Positions 1,724 through 14,186 of a stretch of 64,000 bases of DNA are shown piece by piece. The stretch comes from Acidovorax sp. 106 (GTDB lineage: Bacteria; Pseudomonadota; Gammaproteobacteria; Burkholderiales; Burkholderiaceae_C), in NCBI RefSeq assembly GCF_003663825.1, contig NZ_RCCC01000001.1, positions 3,294,501 through 3,358,500 on the forward strand. The letters run 5' to 3'. The notes beneath the pieces were generated by a model that did no database searches, was not told where the DNA came from, and saw nothing but the letters and a program-made list of their open reading frames with translations. Position numbers and translations under genes: made by a program. Position 1 is the first letter of the stretch. Each line of letters starts with the position of its first letter.

Positions 1724-4177
1724 ATGTTCCCACAAGATATGTTCTCGGACGCGCCCGACAGCGGCGCGCCCCCTGCCCCGGCCGCTGCGGCGGGCCTCTC
1801 GCCCCTGTTGCACAACCTCAACCCCGAACAGCTCGCCGCCGTCACCCTGCCCGCAGGCCACGCGCTGATCCTGGCGGGCGCGGGCTCGGGCAAGACCCGT
1901 GTGCTCACCACCCGCATCGCCTGGCTGCTGCAAAACGGGCACGCCACGCCCGGCGGCATCCTGGCCGTCACCTTTACCAACAAGGCCGCCAAGGAGATGG
2001 TGGCCCGCCTCTCGGCCATGCTGCCCGTGAACGTGCGCGGCATGTGGATTGGCACCTTCCACGGCCTGTGCAACCGGCTTTTGCGCGCCCACCACAAGGC
2101 GGCGGGGCTAGCGCAGACCTTCCAGATTCTGGACACGCAAGACCAGCTCTCGGCCATCAAGCGCCTGTGCAAGCAGCACAACGTGGACGACGAGCGCTTT
2201 CCGCCCAAGCAGCTGTCGTACTTCATTGCCAATTGCAAGGAAGAAGGCCTGCGCCCTGCAGATGTGGAAGCGCACGACAGTGACGCCCGCAAGAAGGTCG
2301 AGATCTACCAGCTCTACGAAGAACAATGCCAGCGCGAAGGCGTGGTGGACTTTGGCGAGCTGATGCTGCGCTCTTACGAGCTGCTGCGCGACAACGACCC
2401 AATCCGCGAGCACTACCAGCGCCGCTTTGCCCACATCCTGGTCGATGAGTTCCAGGACACCAACAAGCTGCAATACGCCTGGCTCAAGCAACTGGCGGGC
2501 AACGACGTGGGCGGGCGCTACGAGGCGCGCGGTAGCGTGATTGCCGTGGGCGACGACGACCAGAGCATCTACGCCTTTCGTGGCGCGCGCGTGGGCAACA
2601 TGACCGACTTCGTGCGCGAGTTCGATGTGCAGCGCCAGATCAAACTCGAGCAAAACTACCGCAGCTACAGCAACATCCTCGACTCGGCCAACGCCCTCAT
2701 CAGCCACAACAGCCGCCGCCTGGGCAAAAACCTGCGCACCACGCAGGGCGCAGGCGAGCCCGTGCGCGTGTACGAGGCCAGCTCCGACCTGGCCGAGGCG
2801 CAGTGGATGGTCGATGAGATCAAGCAACTGGTTCGCAGCGACGGGTTTGATCGCAAGGAAATCGCCGTGCTCTACCGCAGCAATGCGCAAAGCCGGGTGA
2901 TCGAATCGGCGCTGTTCAATGCCAGCGTGCCCTACCGCGTGTACGGCGGCCTGCGCTTTTTCGAGCGCGCTGAAATCAAGCACGCATTGGCGTATCTGCG
3001 CCTTTTGGAGAACCCGCACGACGACACCAGCTTCACCCGCGTGGTCAACTTTCCGCCGCGCGGCATTGGCGCGCGCAGCATTGAGGTGCTGCAAGACGCC
3101 GCCCGCACCGCTGGCTGCTCGTTGCACGACGCCGTGAGCGCCGTGCCCGGCAAGGCTGGAACCAACTTCAAGGCGTTCGTTGCCATGGTCGACGTGCTGC
3201 GTGAGCAGACTGAAGGGCAGAATCTGCGCAGCATCATCGAGCAGGTGCTTGAAACCACCGGCTTGGTCGAGCACTTTCGCACCGAAAAAGAAGGCGCCGA
3301 CCGCATCGAGAACTTGCAGGAACTCGTTAACGCCGCCGAGAGCTTTGTCACCCAGGAAGGCTTTGGCCGCGACGCGGTGGCGCTGCCGCTGGACGAGCAT
3401 GGCACACCGCTCACCCAAAGCGTGGTTAGCCAAGGGATCAACCCCAACGCCCCCATGCTCGACGAGCCTTTGAAGCCCGCCGTAGCGGGCATCGTCGACG
3501 CCGACACGGGCGAAACCCTCTCGCCCCTGGCCGCCTTCCTCACCCACGCTGCGCTTGAGGCCGGCGACAACCAGGCCCAGGCCGGGCAAGACGCCGTGCA
3601 GCTCATGACCGTGCACGCCAGCAAGGGCCTGGAGTTCGACGGTGTGTTCATCGGCGGCATGGAAGAGGGCCTGTTCCCGCACGACAACGCGTCGAGCGAC
3701 CGCGACGGCCTGGAAGAAGAGCGCCGCCTGATGTACGTGGCCATCACCCGTGCCCGCAAGCGCCTGTACCTCAGCCACTCGCAAACGCGCATGCTGCACG
3801 GCCAGACGCGCTACAACGTCAAGAGCCGCTTCTTTGACGAATTGCCCGAAGAGTGCCTCAAGTGGATCACGCCCAAGCAGCAGGGTTTTGGCGCCTATGC
3901 TCCTAATTCAGGAGCTGGCAGCGCTTATGGATCAAGCGCTAGAGGCAATTTTGGCTTCAAGTCTGAAACCTTTGCCAGCCCCCCCGTGCCCCCGCAAAAA
4001 GCCGCACCCTCGCACGGCCTGCGCGCAGGCATTGCCGTGTTCCACACCAAGTTTGGCGAAGGCAAAGTGCTGGCCATTGAAGGCACGGGTGACGACGCCC
4101 GCGCCCAGGTCAACTTCCCGCGCCACGGCACCAAATGGCTAGCGTTGAGTGTGGCCAAGCTGACGGTGGTGGACTGA
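1724..4177 (+). CDS. uvrD: UvrD/PcrA-type superfamily 1 DNA helicase
   Basis: 3'-5' ATP-dependent DNA helicase of nucleotide excision and mismatch repair. All SF1A motifs are visible: Walker A AGAGSGKT (residues 51-58), VTFTNKAAKEM, GTFHGLCNRLLR, the DEFQDTN Walker B box, VGDDDQSIYAFRGA, LEQNYRS, LMTVHASKGLEFDGVF and the final MYVAITRARKRLYL. A C-terminal Tudor-like UvrD domain (FHTKFGEGKVLAIEG...) ends the protein. At 817 residues it is longer than the usual 720-750, because of an insert around residues 575-610 and a linker near 720-744 that is encoded by a palindromic repeat. The open frame extends further 5', but ATG 1724 is the first start that clears the divergent gene; ATG 1739 is another option. 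Confidence 0.95.
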   Translation: MFPQDMFSDAPDSGAPPAPAAAAGLSPLLHNLNPEQLAAVTLPAGHALILAGAGSGKTRVLTTRIAWLLQNGHATPGGILAVTFTNKAAKEMVARLSAMLPVNVRGMWIGTFHGLCNRLLRAHHKAAGLAQTFQILDTQDQLSAIKRLCKQHNVDDERFPPKQLSYFIANCKEEGLRPADVEAHDSDARKKVEIYQLYEEQCQREGVVDFGELMLRSYELLRDNDPIREHYQRRFAHILVDEFQDTNKLQYAWLKQLAGNDVGGRYEARGSVIAVGDDDQSIYAFRGARVGNMTDFVREFDVQRQIKLEQNYRSYSNILDSANALISHNSRRLGKNLRTTQGAGEPVRVYEASSDLAEAQWMVDEIKQLVRSDGFDRKEIAVLYRSNAQSRVIESALFNASVPYRVYGGLRFFERAEIKHALAYLRLLENPHDDTSFTRVVNFPPRGIGARSIEVLQDAARTAGCSLHDAVSAVPGKAGTNFKAFVAMVDVLREQTEGQNLRSIIEQVLETTGLVEHFRTEKEGADRIENLQELVNAAESFVTQEGFGRDAVALPLDEHGTPLTQSVVSQGINPNAPMLDEPLKPAVAGIVDADTGETLSPLAAFLTHAALEAGDNQAQAGQDAVQLMTVHASKGLEFDGVFIGGMEEGLFPHDNASSDRDGLEEERRLMYVAITRARKRLYLSHSQTRMLHGQTRYNVKSRFFDELPEECLKWITPKQQGFGAYAPNSGAGSAYGSSARGNFGFKSETFASPPVPPQKAAPSHGLRAGIAVFHTKFGEGKVLAIEGTGDDARAQVNFPRHGTKWLALSVAKLTVVD
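3885..3955. repeat. palindromic AGCGCT repeat inside the uvrD coding sequence
   Basis: The stretch contains GGAGCTGGCAGCGCTTATGG followed by ATCAAGCGCTAGAGGCAATT, the same two-armed layout (AGCGCT, short loop, AGCGCT, AT-rich flanks) as the intergenic repeats at 7950, 9601, 14033 and 46250. Here it is in frame and encodes the Gly/Ser/Ala-rich linker between the helicase core and the C-terminal UvrD domain. What is seen is the similarity; that a repeat was inserted and kept as coding sequence is inference. Confidence 0.75.
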
Positions 4178-4184
4178 CGCTGAC

Positions 4185-4631
4185 ATGAAGCGCTTGCCAA
4201 GCATGGCACTTCCGCCCGATCTGCAATGGCGCACGCAGTGGCGTGAATGCCTGCGGCCATGGAAGCTGGCCACGCTGGCGTTGGGCATTGGCCTGCTGCT
4301 GTTGGGAGCAGAGCTGACGCCCGCCCCAGACTGGGACGTGCCCATCAGCTTCATCATGGGGCTGCTGGCCTACGCCACCGCGCCCTGGAGCCTGCGGGTA
4401 CTGGTGCGGCGCCATTGGCGCGCCTTGCCGTTGGCGCTGTTTCTGGCTTGGTTGACTGTGGACGGCTGCTACGCCCTCTACTGGTCTTTGAAAGACCCCG
4501 CCGCGCTGGCCCTGATGCGGGATGTGAACTTTCCCGCATCGCTGTCGCTGTATGGCATGTGTGGGCTGGGGTGGCTGTACCAGGGCTCGTTGCGTCAGGC
4601 CTGGCAGGCGCTGAAGCAGCCTGCCCGGTAG
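4185..4631 (+). CDS. small integral membrane protein, unknown
   Basis: Unrecognised 148-residue protein starting eight bases after the uvrD stop, so probably co-transcribed with it. Four hydrophobic segments are visible, at about residues 28-45, 52-72, 80-98 and 117-135, with Arg-rich loops (RRHWR) between them, which suggests a four-helix inner-membrane protein. No catalytic motif is apparent. The 251 bases that follow, before the hsdR start, show no gene. Confidence 0.6.
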   Translation: MKRLPSMALPPDLQWRTQWRECLRPWKLATLALGIGLLLLGAELTPAPDWDVPISFIMGLLAYATAPWSLRVLVRRHWRALPLALFLAWLTVDGCYALYWSLKDPAALALMRDVNFPASLSLYGMCGLGWLYQGSLRQAWQALKQPAR

Positions 4632-4882
4632 TTGTCGCCATCAGCCTCTCATCGCCAGCCCGTTCAAACAAACGCCCGATCCTCCAGCCACTGCGTGCTG
4701 ACCAGGCGACGCTCTCGCGCACAGGGCAACGTCCTGCTCCACGGCACCGGGTTGTTGGCGTTGATCTTGGCCAAACTGACTGTGTTGGATGGAGCGCGAA
4801 AGCTGGGCCCTGGCACGGCGATGGGTCGGGCAGGGCGGGTTATGCTGTGGCCCCAGTTAACATTTGGACACCAACGGGCCCG

Positions 4883-7800
4883 ATGAGTACGAGCAACTTC
4901 AGTTTTCTGACCTCCCACTCCCCCTTGCTGGCCGAGCTGGGCGCCACCGCCGAACGCCTCTACCCCTACGACCCCGCCAGTTGCGTCCTCAAGCTGCGCC
5001 TGCTGGCCGAAAGCCTCACGCAAGAGGTGGCTGACCGCATTGGCCTCACGGTGGGCCAAAGCACCCAGGCCGAGCTGCTGCGCGCCGTGGACCAGCGCCT
5101 GGGGCTGGACGCGCAGGTGCGCCAGATGTTGCATGTGCTGCGCCAGCGCGGCAACGAGGCCGCGCACCAGGTCAACCACCGCATTGGCTACCGCGAGGGG
5201 CTCGAATCCCTCAAGCTCGCCCGCGAGCTGGCCCTGTGGTTCCACCGCACCTTTGGCAACGCGCCGCAGTTCAAGCCCGGCCCGTTTGTCCTGCCCGACG
5301 ACCCCAGCCAAAAGCTCGTCACCCTGCAGCGGCAAATCACCGCGCTGCAAGGCCAACTGCAGCAAACCCAGACCGCCCAAGCGGCCCAGGCAGAACTGGC
5401 CCAACTGCTCGAAGCCCAGGCCGCGCAAGAGCGCGACATGGCCCAGCGCGCGCAAGAAGAGCGCGCCATTTACGAACAACTGGCCGAAGACGCCAGCCAG
5501 CGCCTGGCCGACCTGCAAACAGCCCTGCAAGAACGCCAGCGCGCCGACGCCGCAGCCAAGGCCGCAGCCCCCGCAGCCACCATAGCCACCATAGCCACCA
5601 TAGCCACCACAGCCACCACAGCCACCACAGCCACCACAGCGCAGGGCGACGCCGCTGCCCTGCGCCTGTGGGCCGAGCGCTCAGCCCAGGCCGCCCAGCA
5701 AGTGCAGATGGACGAGGCCGCCACCCGGCTGCTGATCGACCAACAGCTCATCGACGCTGGCTGGGAGGCCGACACCGTCCACAGCACCCACGCCCGAGGC
5801 GCCCGCCCCGAAAAAGGCAAAAACAAAGCCATTGCCGAGTGGCCCACCCAGGGCAAGCAAAGCGCCGACTACATCCTGTTTGCCGGGCTCACCCCCATTG
5901 CAGCGGTCGAGGCCAAGCGCCTGAACACCAACGTGGCGGGCAAAATTCCGCAGGCCGAGCGCTACGCCCGGGGCCTGCCATTGGCCCCTGAGCACCAGCC
6001 CGCCTGGGCGGTGGAGGGCCGCGCCGCCCCCTGGCCCGATGGCGAAGGCGGCAGCTTTCAGTTGCCGTTTGTGTACTCGTGCAATGGCCGCCCGCTCATC
6101 AAGCAAAGCCCCGAGGCCAGCGGCACCTGGCACCGCGACGTGCGCCAAACCGCCAACCTGCGCAAGGTGCTGCCCGGCTTTCACTCGCCCCAGGGCCTGC
6201 TCGACCAACTCACCCGCTCCAAAGCCGACGCCCAGGCCCGCTTGGCGCAAGAGAGCTTTGCCTACCTGCGCCTGCGCGACTACCAGGTCAAAGCCATTGC
6301 GGCCGTCGAAGCGGCCTTGGCCCAGGGCCAAAGCAACTGCCTGCTCGCCATGGCCACCGGCACCGGCAAAACCCGCACCATCATTGGCCTGATGTACCGG
6401 TTCTTGAAGGCCGAGCGCTTTCGCCGCATCTTGTTTTTGGTGGACCGCACCGCCCTGGGCACCCAGGCCATGGACAACTTCAATGAAGCCCCGCTGGAGC
6501 AAGACCAGCCCCTGTCCAAGATCTACAACATTGCCGACCTGGGCGACATGGCCGCCCAGGCCGAAACCCGCGTGCAAGTGGCCACCGTGCAGGCCATGGC
6601 GCGCCGCATTTTGGGCAGCGACAACCCGCCCCCGCTCGATGCCTACGACTGCATCATCGTGGACGAAGCCCACCGTGGCTACACGCTCGACCAAGACATG
6701 ACCGAGGGCGAACTCGCCCTGCGCGACCCGGCCCAGTACCTCAGCAGCTACCGCCGCGTGCTCGACTACTTTGACGCCGCCAAAATCGGCCTGACTGCCA
6801 CCCCCGCCCAGCACACCAGCGAGATTTTTGGCAAACCGGTCTACACCTACTCCTACCGCGAAGCCGTGGCCGACGACTGGCTCATCGACTACGAGCCGCC
6901 CATCCGCTACGAAACCCTGCTCAGCAAGCACGGCATCCACTTCGCCAAGGGCGACACGGTAGAGAGCCTGAACCTCAGCACCGGCGAGATCGAAGCCGCC
7001 GAGCTCGACGACGAGCTGCACTTTGAGGTGGAGAGCTTCAACCGCCGCGTCATCAACGAAGACTTCAACCGCATCATCTGCGAGCAACTGGCCCAGGAGC
7101 TGGACCCGCTGGGCGAAGAAAAAACCATGGTTTTTTGCGCCACCGATGCGCACGCCGACATGGTGGTGCGCCTGCTGGGCCAGGCGTTTGAGGGCATCTA
7201 CGGCGAGCAATACAACCAGGCCGCCGTGCAAAAAATCACCGGCGCGTGTGACAAGGTAGACCAGCTGATTCGCCGCTACAAAAACGAACGCTTTCCCAGC
7301 ATCGCCGTCACCGTAGACCTGCTCACCACCGGCATCGACGTGCCCGCCATCTGCCACTTGGTGTTCATGCGCCGGGTGAAGTCGCGCATCTTGTACGAGC
7401 AGATGATTGGCCGCGCCACCCGCCGCTGCGACGACATTGGCAAAACCGTCTTCAAGATTTACGACCCGGTGGACCTGTACGCCACCCTGCAAAGCGTCAA
7501 CACCATGAAGCCGCTGGTCAAAAACCCGCAGGTCGACATGGAGCAACTGCTCGACGAACTGAACCACCCCACCGCCTACACCGCCCCCGGCAGCGCACCT
7601 GGCCGCAGCCACGCGCACGACGTGCTCGACGAGCTGAACCAAAAGCTCATGCGCGTGCTGCGCAGCGCCCAGCACAAGGCCGACAAACACCCTGCGCTGA
7701 AAGAGCGGCTGGACGCGCTAGAGCAGCAATGGGGCGTGCCGCCTGTAGAGCTGCACCGCCACCCGCCTCACCCCCGCGCTGTTGGCCAAGGCCTTTCGCG

Positions 7801-7996
7801 GCGAGCTGGTGCCGCAAGACCCGAACGACGAGCCCGCCGCCGAGCTGCTGCGCCGCCTGCAGGCCCAGCGCGCCACGGCGGCGCCCGCGTCCAAAGCCGG
7901 TGCGGGCAGGGGGCGGGGCCGCAAGGCGGCGGCTGTGGCCGATATGTAGTGAAAATGGCCGCCAGCACTTATAAAACAAGCGCTGGTAGCTACTGA
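4883..7996 (+). CDS. hsdR: type I restriction endonuclease subunit R, C-terminus replaced
   Basis: HsdR-type translocase and nuclease of a type I restriction system. In order: a DUF4145-like N-terminus (residues 1-130), a Gln/Ala-rich coiled coil (about 140-225), a Thr/Ile/Ala tandem repeat (232-252), an HSDR_N nuclease core with SADYILF and the catalytic EAK of AAVEAKRLN (about 327-345), then the motor with Walker A ATGTGKT (near 490), the DEAH box (near 592), GLTATP, and a helicase C domain ending QMIGRATRRC. HsdR-like sequence stops near 7755 (WGVPPVELHRH). The last about 80 codons read an hsdS tail in the wrong frame and then an intergenic repeat, which supplies the stop. ATG 4883 is chosen because homology begins there. 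No hsdM is present, so classical restriction is unlikely; the motor and nuclease could still be made. Confidence 0.85.
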   Translation: MSTSNFSFLTSHSPLLAELGATAERLYPYDPASCVLKLRLLAESLTQEVADRIGLTVGQSTQAELLRAVDQRLGLDAQVRQMLHVLRQRGNEAAHQVNHRIGYREGLESLKLARELALWFHRTFGNAPQFKPGPFVLPDDPSQKLVTLQRQITALQGQLQQTQTAQAAQAELAQLLEAQAAQERDMAQRAQEERAIYEQLAEDASQRLADLQTALQERQRADAAAKAAAPAATIATIATIATTATTATTATTAQGDAAALRLWAERSAQAAQQVQMDEAATRLLIDQQLIDAGWEADTVHSTHARGARPEKGKNKAIAEWPTQGKQSADYILFAGLTPIAAVEAKRLNTNVAGKIPQAERYARGLPLAPEHQPAWAVEGRAAPWPDGEGGSFQLPFVYSCNGRPLIKQSPEASGTWHRDVRQTANLRKVLPGFHSPQGLLDQLTRSKADAQARLAQESFAYLRLRDYQVKAIAAVEAALAQGQSNCLLAMATGTGKTRTIIGLMYRFLKAERFRRILFLVDRTALGTQAMDNFNEAPLEQDQPLSKIYNIADLGDMAAQAETRVQVATVQAMARRILGSDNPPPLDAYDCIIVDEAHRGYTLDQDMTEGELALRDPAQYLSSYRRVLDYFDAAKIGLTATPAQHTSEIFGKPVYTYSYREAVADDWLIDYEPPIRYETLLSKHGIHFAKGDTVESLNLSTGEIEAAELDDELHFEVESFNRRVINEDFNRIICEQLAQELDPLGEEKTMVFCATDAHADMVVRLLGQAFEGIYGEQYNQAAVQKITGACDKVDQLIRRYKNERFPSIAVTVDLLTTGIDVPAICHLVFMRRVKSRILYEQMIGRATRRCDDIGKTVFKIYDPVDLYATLQSVNTMKPLVKNPQVDMEQLLDELNHPTAYTAPGSAPGRSHAHDVLDELNQKLMRVLRSAQHKADKHPALKERLDALEQQWGVPPVELHRHPPHPRAVGQGLSRRAGAARPERRARRRAAAPPAGPARHGGARVQSRCGQGAGPQGGGCGRYVVKMAASTYKTSAGSY
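5576..5638 (+). repeat. 9-bp tandem repeat (7 units) inside hsdR
   Basis: Three GCCACCATA units followed by four GCCACCACA units, without gaps. They encode Ala-Thr-Ile x3 and Ala-Thr-Thr x4, a flexible linker between the coiled coil and the nuclease domain. The unit is a multiple of three, so changes in copy number would keep the frame. Confidence 0.95.
7749..7949 (+). pseudogene. hsdS: 3' remnant of an hsdS specificity-subunit gene
   Basis: In the frame offset from hsdR (codons starting at 7764) the DNA encodes RLTPALLAKAFRGELVPQDP and then NDEPAAELLRRLQAQR, ending in a Lys/Arg/Ala tail and TAG at 7947-7949. ALLAKAFRGELVPQDPNDEPA is the characteristic C-terminus of type I specificity subunits. 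No start codon, target-recognition domain or upstream part remains; a stop in this frame at 7746-7748 bounds it. The simplest reading is a deletion that removed the 3' end of hsdR and nearly all of a downstream hsdS, joining them near 7755-7764. Confidence 0.82.
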
Positions 7997-8008
7997 TTTG
8001 ATAGTGAA
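7950..8008. repeat. palindromic AGCGCT repeat
   Basis: AAAATGGCCGCCAGCACTTA, a short loop, then AAGCGCTGGTAGCTACTGAT. It lies directly after the hsdS remnant stop, provides the stop codon of the hsdR frame (7994-7996), and sits just upstream of the DUF5655 gene. Confidence 0.85.
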
Positions 8009-8042
8009 TGATGCATTACCACCAGAACGGGAACCGCGTGGC

Positions 8043-9119
8043 ATGAGCGATATCCAGCTATTCCGCATCCAGGCCGGGCAGGCCACGGCGCTGCAGGGCG
8101 AGGCGTCTGACCTGGAGAAGCCGCTGCAGACGCTGATCGAGGCCAACCTGGAGGTGCTGCTGGGCATCCGCTTTCTGGCCACCGAATACTCCACGGGCAA
8201 GACGCATGGCGGGCGCATTGACACGCTGGGCATGGACGAGAACCACTGCCCGGTGATCATTGAATACAAGCGCTCGGTGGGCGAGAACGTGATCAACCAG
8301 GGCCTGTTTTACCTGGACTGGTTGATGGACCACCGGGCCGAGTTCAAGCTGCTGGTGCTGGAGCAACTGGGCCGTGCGGCGGCCGACGCGATTGACTGGA
8401 GCGCGCCGCGCCTGGTGTGCATTGCGGCAGATTTCACCAAATACGACGGGCATGCGGTGCAGCAGATCCAGCGCAGCATTGAGCTCATGCGCTACCGCCG
8501 CTTTGGCCGCGAGTTGCTGTTGCTGGAGCTGGCCCATGCGTACTCGCCCCCGCAGGCGCCGCGCCGGGTGGGCAGCAGCCCGGCGGTGGCGGTGCAGCAG
8601 GCACAGCCGCCTGCCACCCGCTCTGGCCTGCCGCCCACGTCAACCCCCGCCGCAGTGCAGCCTACCGCGTTGCCTACAGCGCTGCTAACAGGGCTGCCAA
8701 CTGGGCTGCCTACAGCGCTGGGCGCCAAGCCCGTGGGGCCAGACAAAGCTTACGCAGACATCCTGGCTACGTTGCCCGAGCCGTTGCTGGATGTGCTGGC
8801 CTCGCTGGAGGACTACACCTTGTCGCTGGGCGACGATGTGCAGCGCAAAGAGCTGCGGCTGTACCTGGCGTTCAAGCGCATCAAGAACTTTGCCAGCGTG
8901 GTGCTGCAGCGCACGCGCGTGCTGCTGTACCTGCGGCTGGAGCCCGCGCACAGCCTGCCCGCCATCCAGGCCGTGCTGCCGGGCGCGCGCGATGTGTCGC
9001 AGCTGGGCCACTGGGGCACGGGCGATGTGGAGTTGGCGCTGGCCACCATGGCCGACCTGGATGCGGCCAAGCCCTTCATCGCGCAGGCGTACCAGGGGCG
9101 GGGAGCGGCTGCGGCGTAG
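8043..9119 (+). CDS. PD-(D/E)XK nuclease-like protein with C-terminal DUF5655
   Basis: Predicted DNA-binding or nuclease protein of 358 residues. The N-terminal half holds a PD-(D/E)XK-type core: GGRIDTLG with D60, then VIIEYKR with E74 and K76. A Pro/Thr/Leu/Gly-rich linker (about 185-235) made of repeated TALPT/TGLPT steps joins it to a C-terminal DUF5655 domain (about 238-352, with GDDVQRKELRLYLAFKR and HWGTGDVELAL). MSDIQLFRI is taken as the start; the frame opens 15 codons earlier inside the repeat. In my recollection DUF5655 proteins often sit beside restriction genes, and here it follows the broken type I locus. Its own substrate is unknown. Confidence 0.75.
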   Translation: MSDIQLFRIQAGQATALQGEASDLEKPLQTLIEANLEVLLGIRFLATEYSTGKTHGGRIDTLGMDENHCPVIIEYKRSVGENVINQGLFYLDWLMDHRAEFKLLVLEQLGRAAADAIDWSAPRLVCIAADFTKYDGHAVQQIQRSIELMRYRRFGRELLLLELAHAYSPPQAPRRVGSSPAVAVQQAQPPATRSGLPPTSTPAAVQPTALPTALLTGLPTGLPTALGAKPVGPDKAYADILATLPEPLLDVLASLEDYTLSLGDDVQRKELRLYLAFKRIKNFASVVLQRTRVLLYLRLEPAHSLPAIQAVLPGARDVSQLGHWGTGDVELALATMADLDAAKPFIAQAYQGRGAAAA

Positions 9120-9356
9120 GCCGGGGGATCTGGGCGTGGGTGGCTGTGGACCGGCTGTCGATGGCTATCGACGGTCGTTGATGGCTTGGTGTGAGGGGGC
9201 GGTGTGCGTGGTGTAGGTGTGTGGTGCGGGTGCGCTGCGCCACGCGGTGTGGGCCAGTGCTCGTCCAGGCAAGCGCTCTGCCGGTCTCTGCCGCGCGGGT
9301 GCGTTCACGGCCGTTCACGCTGAGCTGGTCGCAGCGCTGCGCAGGCTTCACCCCTT

Positions 9357-9406
9357 CTCTCCAGCTCTCTCCAACTCTCTCCAGTCCTCTCCGGCCCTCT
9401 CCAGCA
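9357..9406 (+). repeat. 10-bp tandem repeat, five units
   Basis: Five consecutive decamers that all begin CTCTCC: CTCTCCAGCT, CTCTCCAACT, CTCTCCAGTC, CTCTCCGGCC and CTCTCCAGCA. It is non-coding and strongly strand-asymmetric (pyrimidine-rich). Confidence 0.85.
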
Positions 9407-9502
9407 AGGGGCGGGGGCGTAACGCGCCTGGCCGTTGCAGTGCGGTGGTTGTGCCGTGAAAGCGCCTGATGGGCGACTGGCCTCAGACTGCCCATCCGCT
9501 GG

Positions 9503-9570
9503 CCGTTCAGGCTGAGCTTGTCGAAGCCAGGGCGCTATTTGCACACATCCCTTCGACGGGCTCAGTGCGC
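9503..9570. repeat. facing pair of GGCTGAGCTTGTCGAAG-type repeats
   Basis: GGCTGAGCTTGTCGAAG at about 9510-9526 and the complementary CTTCGACGGGCTCAG at 9551-9565 face each other across about 24 bases, so the transcript could form a hairpin. Further copies lie at 14108-14131 and 15111-15222. Confidence 0.75.
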
Positions 9571-9600
9571 GCGGTGTGTCTGAGGCAGGTAACTATTCAA

Positions 9601-9660
9601 GTAAAAATGGCCTTGAGCGCTTATGTATCAAGCGCTGGTAGCTATGATATTGATAGTAAT
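9601..9660. repeat. palindromic AGCGCT repeat
   Basis: GCGCTTATGTATCAAGCGCT is the central stem, followed by GGTAGCTATGATATTGATAG and preceded by GTAAAAATGGCC. It is one of the cleanest copies in the window and lies in the gap between the DUF5655 and RCC1 genes. Confidence 0.88.
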
Positions 9661-10110
9661 CGGCCGCAGCTCCGGCTTCGGGTGGCGCTGCCCGAGCGGG
9701 TGGGGGCGTGCGGGGCGGCTGCCTCTGCGTTGGCAGGGCCTGCCCGATCGGGGTGGCGCAGGATGGGTCTGCTTCGCCGTTCTTTATCCCAGCGGACGAG
9801 TGCGCCGTCCTGCGGGGGCCCCCAGGCGCAAAGCACAGCCACAGGCCCATCGCGAGCCTTGGCAATCGCGCCAGCGGTGTCGTGAATGTGCCGCGCTGCA
9901 GACCATCTGAATCCGCCAACGCTCACGGCGCGCAATGGAGCGCAGAGGGCCCCCTGGGTGTGAACTATTTTTGTTTACATCTTGGATTTCTCTGGCTACA
10001 TTGCGGCGGTTTTTTCCACAAGGCTGGTTACCCGAAACGCTGTGGCCCACCCCATGGCCACACATCCCTGTGGTCAGTTGCATTCACAGTGCGTATTTAT
10101 AAGGATTTTC

Positions 10111-12837
10111 ATGTTTGCCTGGACCTGGTCGCCCCATGCTCGGCCCATCCTCGTTTTTGCCCGGTATTTGGGCGGCTCTCACCGCCCTTTGCGCCACCTG
10201 CTGGCGCTGGTTTTACTGCTGTGCCTTGCATTGGCGTGGTCGGGTAGCGCCCATGCCCAGGTGCAACAAGGCCCTGCTGGCCTGGCCAGCGGTTTGAAGT
10301 CAGTGACCGTGGGGTTAGGGCATGCTTGTGCGCTGACCAATGGCGGGGCTGTGTACTGCTGGGGCAGTAACAGCAGCGGGCAATTGGGCGATGGCACGAC
10401 CACCCAGCGCACCACGCCAGTGGCTGTATCAGGCTTGCCCGGCGGTGTGATTGAGGTGGCTGCAGGTGCTTATCACACCTGTGCCAGAACCAATAATAGT
10501 GTGTACTGTTGGGGCGAAAACACCTATGGCCAACTGGGCGACGACTCGAATATCCAGCGCAATACGCCAGTGGCTGTTCCTGGGCTGAATGAACCTGTGT
10601 ATGCCCTGGCAGCGGGCATTCAACACACCTGCGCAATGGCCAACGGGGAAACGTTTTGCTGGGGTCGCAATGGCGACGGTCAACTGGGGGATCGCTTTAC
10701 GGACGACCAAGACACGCCACGGGCGGTGTATCGACTGCCGTTTGGCGCGCTCAACCTGGCAGCAGGATGGGGCCACAGTTGCGCGGCGATCACCCCCTCC
10801 AGCAACACGCAAATTTATTGCTGGGGAAAAAACGACCGAGGACAGCTGGGCGACGGAACAACCACCCAGCGCCTGGAGTTCGTGCAGGTGTCCACACAGA
10901 CGGGTGCAGCGCGGTCCCTGGCAGCGGGGGACTTGCACACTTGTGTAGTGAATGGCGCCGGTACCATGTCTTGCTGGGGTTACAACAGTGACGGCCAGCT
11001 TGGCGACGGAACAACCACCCAGCGCAACACGCCAACCGTGGTAGCCAGCGGAATGAAAGCTGCTGCTGTGGGCCTCGGTCACACCTGCGCGTTGACCAGC
11101 GCTGGGGCTGTGTTTTGCACAGGCCGAAACAATGCCGGCCAGTTGGGTGATGGCAGCGGCGTAGATCGCTCTGCGCTTGTGGCCGTGCCAGACCTGAGTG
11201 ATGTGCAGAGCCTGGACGCAGGCGGCTTTGGAACCTGCGCGGTTACGGCTTTAGGCGGGGGGTACTGTTGGGGCAGCAACGGCAGTGGGCAGCTGGGAGA
11301 TGGCACCACCACGACAAGCCTGTCGCCCGTATCGGTCATCGCCGCCATGGCGCCCACAGGCGTGCAAGCCGTGGCAGGAGACAGCGCGGTAACCGTCAGC
11401 TGGGCGCCACCCCCATCAAACCACGGCACCATCAGCAGTTACACCGTTACGGCCAGAGCAGGCCCGGCGGTAGGCTCGTGCACCATCACCGCCCCGACCA
11501 CCGCCTGCACGATCAATGGCCTGACCAACGGCACAGCCCACACCTTCACCGTCAAGGCTACCAATGACTTGGGTAGCAGCGACGAATCGTCAGGCGTCAC
11601 AGCCACCCCGCAGGTGATCACGCAACCCGCACTGCCGCTGCCCGGAGGCGGCAACGCCTCGGTGACCATTGGCGGCGGCACGCCAGGCTGCACGATCGCC
11701 TCTGCGCAGTTTGACAACAATGTGCCCGCAGGCGCGCCAGCGCGTGCCACGTTCCCGCATGGCGTGTTCCGCTTTGAGGCCACAGGCTGCGCAGGCGCGA
11801 CGCTGGCGGTGTCCATCACCTACCCCACAGCGTTGGCGACGGGCGTGCAGTTGCTCAAGCACGGGCCCAAGACGGCGGGTGGTGCATCGGAATGGTTCAC
11901 GCCGACCACGGTGTCTATCAGCGCAGACCGGAAGACCGTGAACTACACGGTGACGGACAACGGCGAGGGTGATAGCGACACCACGGTGGGCACGATTCGC
12001 GACCCGTTTGCGCCCATGCTGGTGGTGCCCGGCGCACCCACGGTGCCCCGCAACGTGCAGGCTGTGGCAGGTGATGGGGCGGTGGCCGTGAGCTGGACGG
12101 CTCCTGCCTCCGACAACGACAGCGCCATCCAAAGCTACACCGTCACGGCCAGCCCTGGCTCGCCAGCGCGCACCTGCACCATCGCTGCCCCGGCCACCAC
12201 CTGCAAGGTCGATGGTCTGAGCAACGGCACCACCTACACCTTCACCGTCAAGGCCCTCAACGGCGTGGGCGAAAGCGACAGCTCTGCAGGCGTCACAGCC
12301 ACGCCGCAGGTAATGACGCGCCCATCCCTGCCACTGCCCAGTGGCGGCAACGCCTCGGTGACCATTGGCGGCGGCACGCCAGGCTGCACGATCGCCTCTG
12401 CGCAGTTTGACAACAATGTGCCCGCAGGCGCGCCAGCGCGTGCCACGTTCCCGCATGGCGTGTTCCGCTTTGAGGCCACAGGCTGCGCAGGCGCGACGCT
12501 GGCGGTGTCCATCACCTACCCCACAGCGTTGGCGACGGGCGTGCAGTTGCTCAAGCACGGGCCCAAGACGGCGGGTGGTGCATCGGAATGGTTCACGCCG
12601 ACCACGGTGTCTATCAGCGCAGACCGGAAGACCGTGAACTACACGGTGACGGACAACGGCGAGGGTGATAGCGACACCACGGTGGGCACGATTCGCGACC
12701 CGTTTGCGCCCGTGTTGTTGCCTGCTCCCCCCGTAGGCGCGACATCGATTCCTACACTGAGCGAATGGGGCCTGTTATGGATGTCTTTGTTGGCCGCAGC
12801 CATGGGGATGTGGACTGTGCGCCGACGCTCAGTGTGA
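10111..12837 (+). CDS. secreted RCC1-repeat / fibronectin III protein with IPTL-CTERM anchor
   Basis: Predicted cell-surface protein of 908 residues. ATG 10111 follows an AAGGA. A long signal region ends at AHAQ near residue 49. Residues about 64-412 hold seven RCC1-type repeats, each with a HxCA...YCWG core and GQLGDG, enough for one seven-bladed propeller. Two fibronectin III modules (about 412-500 and 643-740) alternate with two identical 123-residue modules of the choice-of-anchor type. The end, IPTLSEWGLLWMSLLAAAMG then RRR, is an IPTL-CTERM sorting signal: motif, one membrane helix, basic tail. Paired Cys in most RCC1 blades suggest disulfides outside the cytoplasm. The ligand is unknown. 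It stands alone, with repeats upstream and an IS downstream. Confidence 0.82.
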   Translation: MFAWTWSPHARPILVFARYLGGSHRPLRHLLALVLLLCLALAWSGSAHAQVQQGPAGLASGLKSVTVGLGHACALTNGGAVYCWGSNSSGQLGDGTTTQRTTPVAVSGLPGGVIEVAAGAYHTCARTNNSVYCWGENTYGQLGDDSNIQRNTPVAVPGLNEPVYALAAGIQHTCAMANGETFCWGRNGDGQLGDRFTDDQDTPRAVYRLPFGALNLAAGWGHSCAAITPSSNTQIYCWGKNDRGQLGDGTTTQRLEFVQVSTQTGAARSLAAGDLHTCVVNGAGTMSCWGYNSDGQLGDGTTTQRNTPTVVASGMKAAAVGLGHTCALTSAGAVFCTGRNNAGQLGDGSGVDRSALVAVPDLSDVQSLDAGGFGTCAVTALGGGYCWGSNGSGQLGDGTTTTSLSPVSVIAAMAPTGVQAVAGDSAVTVSWAPPPSNHGTISSYTVTARAGPAVGSCTITAPTTACTINGLTNGTAHTFTVKATNDLGSSDESSGVTATPQVITQPALPLPGGGNASVTIGGGTPGCTIASAQFDNNVPAGAPARATFPHGVFRFEATGCAGATLAVSITYPTALATGVQLLKHGPKTAGGASEWFTPTTVSISADRKTVNYTVTDNGEGDSDTTVGTIRDPFAPMLVVPGAPTVPRNVQAVAGDGAVAVSWTAPASDNDSAIQSYTVTASPGSPARTCTIAAPATTCKVDGLSNGTTYTFTVKALNGVGESDSSAGVTATPQVMTRPSLPLPSGGNASVTIGGGTPGCTIASAQFDNNVPAGAPARATFPHGVFRFEATGCAGATLAVSITYPTALATGVQLLKHGPKTAGGASEWFTPTTVSISADRKTVNYTVTDNGEGDSDTTVGTIRDPFAPVLLPAPPVGATSIPTLSEWGLLWMSLLAAAMGMWTVRRRSV
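11647..12015 (+). repeat. 369-bp direct repeat, copy 1
   Basis: In-frame 123-codon unit running from GGCGGCAACGCCTCGG to GACCCGTTTGCGCCC. It appears identical, base for base, to 12343-12711, offset by 696 bases with a diverged FN3 module between. It encodes the Cys-containing anchor-type module. Confidence 0.93.
12343..12711 (+). repeat. 369-bp direct repeat, copy 2
   Basis: Second copy of the 123-codon unit at 11647-12015. Sequence diverges immediately outside both ends, while the FN3 modules before each copy are only similar. This suggests a recent duplication or a gene-conversion tract. Confidence 0.93.
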
Positions 12838-12971
12838 GGATGCTGAGAGCGGCTCGCATCGCACCCTGGGGCGTTTTGCACAGGTTTGTTGCACCGCTCA
12901 TGCTTGCCGTGGCTTGGTGTACGCCCAGGGCTTTTTAGGTCATTGGCGTCGATTTTTTATGGAAAAAGTGG

Positions 12972-14032
12972 CCTGATTAGCTACTTACCTCAGATACCCG
13001 CAGCACTTTCAAAGGCAGTGGCCCAGCAGTCACCAAGGCTTTCAACAGCCTGGGCAGCATGGCAGGCAGATCAAAGCGGCGGTTGAATCGCCAGCAGAAC
13101 TCGGCCAAGTAGCGCTGTGCATACCTGGTATGGTCAAACGAGTGATAGGTGCCCGCCATGCTGGTCTTGAGGTTGCCCAGCAAGGTGTTCACCCAACGCA
13201 GCTGAGGTGTCTGTGCCCCCTTGCGCCCACCGCCAGTCACGTAGCGCTCATGCGTAGCCTGCGCCTGCTGCACTTGCGCAAAGGCCCGAGTGCCGTCGCT
13301 GACCACGTGGCAGCGCGCCGCTAGGTGAGCCTGTGCCCATTGCCGCATGTGCTCGTTGGTGAAGTCCGCCACAGGTGTCAGGCACATGTACAGGGGCCGG
13401 CCATCGGTGCTGGTCTGCACCGCAGCGACGAAGGCCGTCTTGTTGGCTGCGCGGCGCCCGCCGTTGATGTGTCCTGCCCGCTCGCCCCCAAGGTAGGCAT
13501 CGTCAATCTCCACCCGCCCTTGCAGCAGGTAGCGCGCATCGCGCTGGGCCATGGCCTGCATCAGTTTGTGCTTCATCAGCCATGCCGTTTTGTAGGACAC
13601 GCCCAACTGGCGCTTGAGCGCCAGGGCGCTGATGGCATTCTTGTTCTGCGTCAGCAGGTACATGGCCAGGAACCACAGCCTCAGGGGCACATGGGAGTGT
13701 TCCATTACAGTGCCCACGATGGAGGAGCTTTGGTAGCCACAAAGGAAGCACTCCCACAGCAGTCGACCCGTGCCATTGCGGGTGTGAAAAAAGCGCTTGC
13801 AGCCGCAGTGCGCGCACCGCCAGCCCAAGGGCCATCGTGCGCCCACCAGGGCCTGCTCGCACTGCTGCTCGCTGCAGTAAAGGCTCTGAAACTGAGGCAG
13901 TGACAGGCCCCGTTGGAACTGGATCGCGTTGATGGACATCGCTTGCTCCTTGGCGCCGAGAACTCGGCATGTCCGTTGGAGTCCTGCGCCTAGGCTTTGT
14001 TCTGCTCACTCTGAGATATGTCGCTAATCAGG
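12972..14032 (-). mobile_element. IS1595-family insertion sequence with 8-bp target duplication
   Basis: 1061-bp element. The left end reads CCTGATTAGCTACTTACCTC and the complement of the right end CCTGATTAGCGACATATCTC, imperfect terminal inverted repeats. It is flanked on both sides by AAAAGTGG (12964-12971 and 14033-14040), the 8-bp direct duplication expected for IS1595. It carries one intact transposase gene, whose stop lies inside the left inverted repeat, so the copy looks complete and recent. Confidence 0.93.
12977..13939 (-). CDS. IS1595-family (ISXO2-like) transposase
   Basis: 320-residue transposase of the surrounding IS. An N-terminal zinc ribbon (CAHCGC ... CFLCGY) precedes a helical DNA-binding region and an ISXO2-like catalytic domain, with EIDDAYLGGE (first Asp), VVSDG (second Asp) and VNTLLGNLK, where the family can use Asn/Lys in place of Glu. 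The length and single frame match the family, and no frameshift or internal stop is visible. It inserts DNA by cut-and-paste with 8-bp duplications. Confidence 0.93.
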   Translation of the reverse strand: MSINAIQFQRGLSLPQFQSLYCSEQQCEQALVGARWPLGWRCAHCGCKRFFHTRNGTGRLLWECFLCGYQSSSIVGTVMEHSHVPLRLWFLAMYLLTQNKNAISALALKRQLGVSYKTAWLMKHKLMQAMAQRDARYLLQGRVEIDDAYLGGERAGHINGGRRAANKTAFVAAVQTSTDGRPLYMCLTPVADFTNEHMRQWAQAHLAARCHVVSDGTRAFAQVQQAQATHERYVTGGGRKGAQTPQLRWVNTLLGNLKTSMAGTYHSFDHTRYAQRYLAEFCWRFNRRFDLPAMLPRLLKALVTAGPLPLKVLRVSEVSS

Positions 14033-14107
14033 AAAAGTGGCCGCTAGCGCTTGTAGATAAGGCGCTGGCAGCTATCTTTTTAGGAGTTCTGGGGTGGCTC
14101 GCTGCAG

Positions 14108-14131
14108 CTTCGACAGGTTCAGCCCGAACGG
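14108..14131 (+). repeat. CTTCGACAGGTTCAGCC-type 24-mer repeat
   Basis: A 24-base copy beginning CTTCGACAGGTTCAGCCCGA, opposite in orientation to the copy at 9503. It lies just downstream of panC. Confidence 0.75.
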
Positions 14132-14186
14132 TGGGAGTGCGCAGGATGTCCAGCCCGAGTGGGCGAGGGTGGTGGTGCCGCAGTCG

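Follow-up and report, generated by a model that had tools for sequence, protein, structure and literature searches.

The gene at positions 4883-7996 (forward strand) of the window, by which we mean the whole 64,000-nucleotide stretch of Acidovorax sp. 106 DNA under analysis, scores as a type I restriction enzyme, yet it is accompanied by neither a methylase nor a specificity subunit and lacks the HsdR C-terminal domain. What, then, is this gene, and how should its annotation be corrected? It had initially been annotated as the scar of a deletion joining hsdR to the end of hsdS, and our analysis leads to much the same answer: it is highly likely, judging from comparisons with related loci, that a single deletion of about 3.7 kb, with short direct repeats at its ends, cut down an hsdR-hsdM-hsdS operon here and left a non-functional remnant.

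The open frame (1037 aa) begins with ATG at 4883, a start identical to that of the intact protein P0001, and Pfam and DNA identity show that it is hsdR-derived over 4883-7763 (forward strand), where the N-terminal region, the nuclease and helicase domains and the beginning of the C-terminal region are encoded. The ResIII, SWI2_SNF2, DEAD, Helicase_C and DUF4145 domains are above the Pfam cut-offs (HSDR_N is below its own), the PADLOC model of the type I restriction endonuclease matches with E=6.8e-208, and none of the 459 near-invariant columns is altered (0-10 in relatives, four of which also have 0); in other words, Pfam, PADLOC and conserved columns all indicate that the nuclease and SF2 motor domains of HsdR are present. 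The HsdR C-terminal domain EcoEI_R_C (PF08463), another mark of a type I system, is absent from the protein according to the Pfam search. Protein similarity to intact HsdR stops at about codon 957-960, in agreement with the earlier placement of its end near 7755, but DNA agreement with the parental hsdR reaches 7763, and we correct the position of the junction to 7756-7763. Past codon 957 the frame acquires a new C-terminal tail of 80 residues (7754-7996, forward strand) without any Pfam match; its first three residues are still HsdR-like, and the rest is encoded by hsdS DNA and by the 47 bases that follow it. As the hsdS DNA past the join is read out of frame, the protein encoded there carries no HsdS sequence. 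The "chimaeric HsdR" of the initial annotation is a long open frame with intact nuclease and motor motifs, as was claimed, but it has lost its C-terminal domain and its post-junction part is not HsdS at the protein level.

Read in its proper frame, the DNA past the junction is the 3' end of hsdS (7764-7949, forward strand; about 61 codons and the stop), as follows from the alignment of relatives and from a tail profile. The HsdS frame has 66 codons, about 61-63 of them hsdS-derived; it stays open from 7749 up to the stop at 7947-7949, another stop lying just upstream at 7746-7748, and the translation of 7749-7949 begins SCTATRLTPALLAKAFRGELVPQDPNDEPAAELLRRL. The profile, built from the tails of 12 relatives with the window excluded, matches positions 7755-7859 with E=4.7e-23 in a whole-genome search, which is not chance and confirms an HsdS C-terminus in a frame different from that of hsdR. 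Pfam gave no match to this tail, as may be expected of so short a sequence. The statement that no hsdM or other hsdS is present in the window was also correct: whole-genome family searches with N6_Mtase and Methylase_S found no match within it (3.2945-3.3585 Mb), so that the locus contains no HsdM and, instead of an HsdS with target recognition domains, the 3' tail alone. The possibility that the tail is a silent hsdS cassette for phase variation was rejected, as it has no recognition domain and the window harbors no other hsdS.

The intact arrangement, which the initial annotation suggested looking for in relatives, was indeed found there. In 14 of the 19 loci retrieved by scanning genome contigs (L003-L007, L009-L016, L018) the motor is followed, on one strand, by the HsdR C-terminus, hsdM and an HsdS tail, so that a single intact gene order accounts for the sequence on either side of the join. 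Of the other five, L017 has a join like that of the window (see below), L008 possesses the C-terminus and the greater part of M with no match to the tail, L020 has the C-terminus and a partial M, the distant relative L021 (27%) has M with no matching C-terminus or tail, and L019 has a gapped, decayed hsdR with a partial C-terminus, no M and no tail. Fourteen further loci from genomes of the family (L088-L101), have short flanks and may partly belong to the same strains as the 19; the C-terminus was matched in every one of them, though partially in three, and the start of hsdM was found in 10. The closest protein among the matches listed, P0001, shows 95% identity across 93% of the query and possesses a full C-terminus with a complete EcoEI_R_C (residues 1002-1162); it was compared as protein only, the repeats at the junction being compared in the DNA of other relatives. 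An in-frame array of 9-bp tandem repeats within hsdR (8.4 copies, 5565-5640, forward strand) coincides with a 21-residue insertion relative to P0001. The explanation that HsdR homologues naturally end where the window's does was rejected, since none of the 53 aligned relatives (a subset of the 120 listed among 2,358 matches) does so: 226-234 residues follow window residue 957 in 52 of them and 172 in the remaining one, P0008. Nor is the chimaeric end common to other proteins, residues 940-1037 being matched at E<=0.001 by none of 1742 candidates, among which the window's own protein was not listed. Within the genus (47 genomes, counting the one analyzed here), the best long match to the window hsdR in any other genome is 66% DNA identity over 1.3 kb. 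A plasmid copy and a phage copy were also sought and rejected: there is no near match to window positions 3500-10000 among plasmids (distant ones, 60-80% DNA identity, occur in 27 records), and all phage matches are below 60% protein identity.

The two nearest of the loci compared are L003, from Rhodoferax sp. TS-BS-61-7, and L014. The former is a type I locus with an EcoEI_R_C-type HsdR, 85% identical to the window protein over the retained part, and, as in the window, its hsdR precedes hsdS on one strand; however, it keeps the approximately 230 HsdR residues, the hsdM and the most of hsdS that are all deleted in the window. Position 7763 of the window has two counterparts in L003, 11791 in hsdR and 15497 in hsdS, separated by 3,706 bp, and two in L014, 8767 and 12468, separated by 3,701 bp. 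The window tracks hsdR up to 7763 and hsdS from 7756 (L003) or 7758 (L014); thus the junction at 7756-7763 (forward strand) consists of bases common to both parental sites, CCGCCACC in L003 (8 bp) and GCCACC in L014 (6 bp). The short direct repeat suspected at the join is therefore present in the two nearest loci. When 200,000 random position pairs were drawn from the hsdR and hsdS ends in these same loci, runs of 8 or more shared bases appeared in a fraction of 2.4e-4 and runs of 6 or more in 2.3-2.4e-3. The corresponding sites of the other seven of nine tested relatives share 0-1 bases (L004, L006, L007, L013, L015, L018) or 4 (L005), so the claim of a repeat rests on L003 and L014, whose shared bases are as would be expected of a deletion between short repeats. 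The parental repeats would have lain about 680 bp upstream of the hsdR end and about 160-185 bp upstream of the hsdS end, and the simplest mechanism would be a single deletion through replication slippage or end joining at microhomology. Successive deletions instead of one could also be envisaged.

It might be supposed that the two sides of the join derive from different type I loci, or that several steps were involved, rather than one operon and one deletion. The reason for such a suspicion is that the first 0.6 kb of hsdR shows 75-78% DNA identity to L003 and L014, versus 91% for the rest, and that genes of the PADLOC candidate family PDC-S18, one of which lies next to the remnant, adjoin other hsd genes in the genus; because of these two features the island may be mosaic. 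However, P0001 shares the diverged start of hsdR, with 0 differences in the first 200 residues, and thus the divergence is not special to the scar, while the HsdS tails that lie beside PDC-S18 genes in G044 and G042 match over 54 and 46 bp only. Moreover, the two sides of the junction have the same two nearest loci among those compared, L003 and L014, with similar identity: the last 2.08 kb of the hsdR part are 91.1% identical in DNA to each of them (87.3% to L004 and 81.9% to L005, four loci being compared), and the hsdS tail is 92.3% identical to L003 and 93.9% to L014, the next best value being 89.5%. Gene order and orientation, too, are those of one operon, and we consider a mixed or multi-step origin very unlikely. 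A single deletion joining hsdR and hsdS, as first proposed, is supported by the intact order, the common nearest loci and the shared bases.

By comparison with relatives, the deletion removed about 227-230 C-terminal residues of HsdR, including EcoEI_R_C, the whole of hsdM, which has 485 codons in L003, and about 89% of hsdS (some 410 codons out of 463 in L003). Relocation of the missing genes was rejected, since searches for the HsdR C-terminus, N6_Mtase and Methylase_S did not find them elsewhere in the genome. Residues 932-1157 of the L003 HsdR have no match anywhere in the one-contig genome; matches of N6_Mtase are confined to 1.767 and 4.247 Mb, and those of Methylase_S to 1.766 Mb. Near 1.76 Mb, genes for an R of 1159 aa that contains EcoEI_R_C, an S of 381 aa and an M of 520 aa apparently make up a complete second type I system, whose HsdR is only about 33% identical to that of the window. 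The match at 4.247 Mb is a 59-codon N6_Mtase fragment with two internal stops (L108:3790-3966), perhaps a remnant of another methylase. As for an assembly error that dropped 3.7 kb, it might be kept in mind given that a single genome of the species was searched, but the genome is one 4.88 Mb contig with 100% completeness, the missing parts are not found elsewhere in it, and an 8-bp repeat is far too short for assembly collapse; such an error is hardly credible.

The product of the deletion would be an HsdR with nuclease and motor domains that has neither its C-terminal domain nor a methyltransferase or specificity subunit to work with. A type I enzyme cannot form without M and S, and, since both are absent, the type I system of the window is most likely dead and the remnant inert. 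The truncated HsdR could not be targeted to DNA, nor could it become part of an R2M2S1 enzyme; the system would thus have lost restriction and modification at the same time. The HsdR C-terminal domain is implicated in methyltransferase binding in EcoR124I (PMC2878639, PMC5248579) and is described, with reference to Gao et al. 2020, as essential to holoenzyme assembly, its deletion abolishing cleavage in vitro (PMC12554148).

The truncated protein might instead have been retained as a stand-alone nuclease-translocase, or act in trans with the second type I system, which would agree with its open frame and with the absence of changes in the 459 near-invariant columns. However, the lack of decay is equally explained by a recent deletion, the domain implicated in assembly is gone, the second HsdR, with its low identity, has its own M and S genes, and the 1742 candidates contained no protein with this end. 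Substitutions since the split of the window and P0001 lines (13 and 6, respectively, 10 being undecided) lean, if anything, to relaxed constraint, without being significant (chi-square 2.6, p ~0.11). Retention for a function is, in our opinion, extremely improbable. Returning to the inert remnant, its undecayed nuclease and motor suggest that the deletion is probably recent, or else that the motor is still constrained, the data being compatible with both. The finding is real and well explained, and it is an ordinary kind of gene decay; its value is that of a clean, probably recent case of the loss of a three-gene restriction operon, perhaps in one step.

Natural loss of chromosomal type I systems has been described in other bacteria. 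According to the report on Staphylococcus aureus JSNZ (PMC12554148), the system was lost there, as in the window, by a deletion in hsdR that removed part of the HsdR C-terminal domain; hsdM and hsdS remained intact, whereas the window has lost them as well and its hsdR runs into the end of hsdS. Similarly, hsdRSM of group A streptococci is interrupted by a prophage or deleted (PMC8597746). Among the matches listed in our literature search, no title or beginning of an abstract describes an hsdR-to-hsdS join, though such a description may exist.

A second join of this kind was found in an unrelated metagenome-assembled genome of Pseudogulbenkiania sp. (L017:8968-11112), where hsdR also directly precedes an HsdS C-terminus. 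This frame encodes the nuclease and the first motor domain and has no Helicase_C domain; no hsdM or HsdR C-terminus matched within 15.9 kb. Unlike in the window, the breakpoint is inside the motor and the fusion is in frame (about 636 hsdR codons, followed by the frame's last 78 codons from hsdS, with about one shared base by eye), which makes it a separate event; given the metagenomic origin, an assembly error is possible there. With these two separate joins in hand, such fusions seem to have arisen more than once and look rare. Across the family, the HsdS-tail profile matched 64 of 399 genomes at E<=1e-6. The matches in frames shorter than 150 aa belong to the window's own genome (G000) and four others, G122, G188, G420 and G373, in which short-frame HsdS C-terminal tails were observed at L139:6404-6619, L140:6206-6511, L141:7754-7987 and L142:5935-6234. 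Three HsdM and two HsdR queries found no match in the 10-13 kb around these four tails; in G373, however, Pfam detects a complete HindI-type HsdR before the tail, which means that distant HsdR types can escape these queries. At seven other tail sites, with longer frames, hsdR and hsdM were matched nearby in all seven. That hsdR-to-hsdS-tail deletions are a recurrent route of death of hsdR-hsdM-hsdS operons appears unlikely; if true, the loss in one step of the HsdR assembly domain, the methylase and the specificity subunit would avoid a stage of restriction without protection.

The scar lies in a variable block (4610-14175) that is absent from the genus-mate G026: flanks about 94% identical in DNA to those of the window are there 43 bp apart. 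The PDC-S18 gene (8043-9119, forward strand; weak NucS_C, DUF5655) directly follows the hsd remnant. Genes of the same family also adjoin hsd genes in two genus-mates, G042 and G044, where a PtuA-like, a PtuB-like and a PDC-S18 gene come, in this order, after a type I operon and after an HsdS end, respectively. Such neighborhoods, comprising hsd genes, a PtuA-like ATPase, a PtuB-like gene and PDC-S18, were observed on the reverse strand at L105:5208-16306 and L104:9888-14141, the hsd part of the latter being the hsdS end only. Besides the remnant and its neighbor, the variable block contains an IS1595-type transposase and, at 9982-12837, a gene for a 951-aa protein with RCC1 repeats, fn3 domains, an IPTL-CTERM motif and a long repeated segment.
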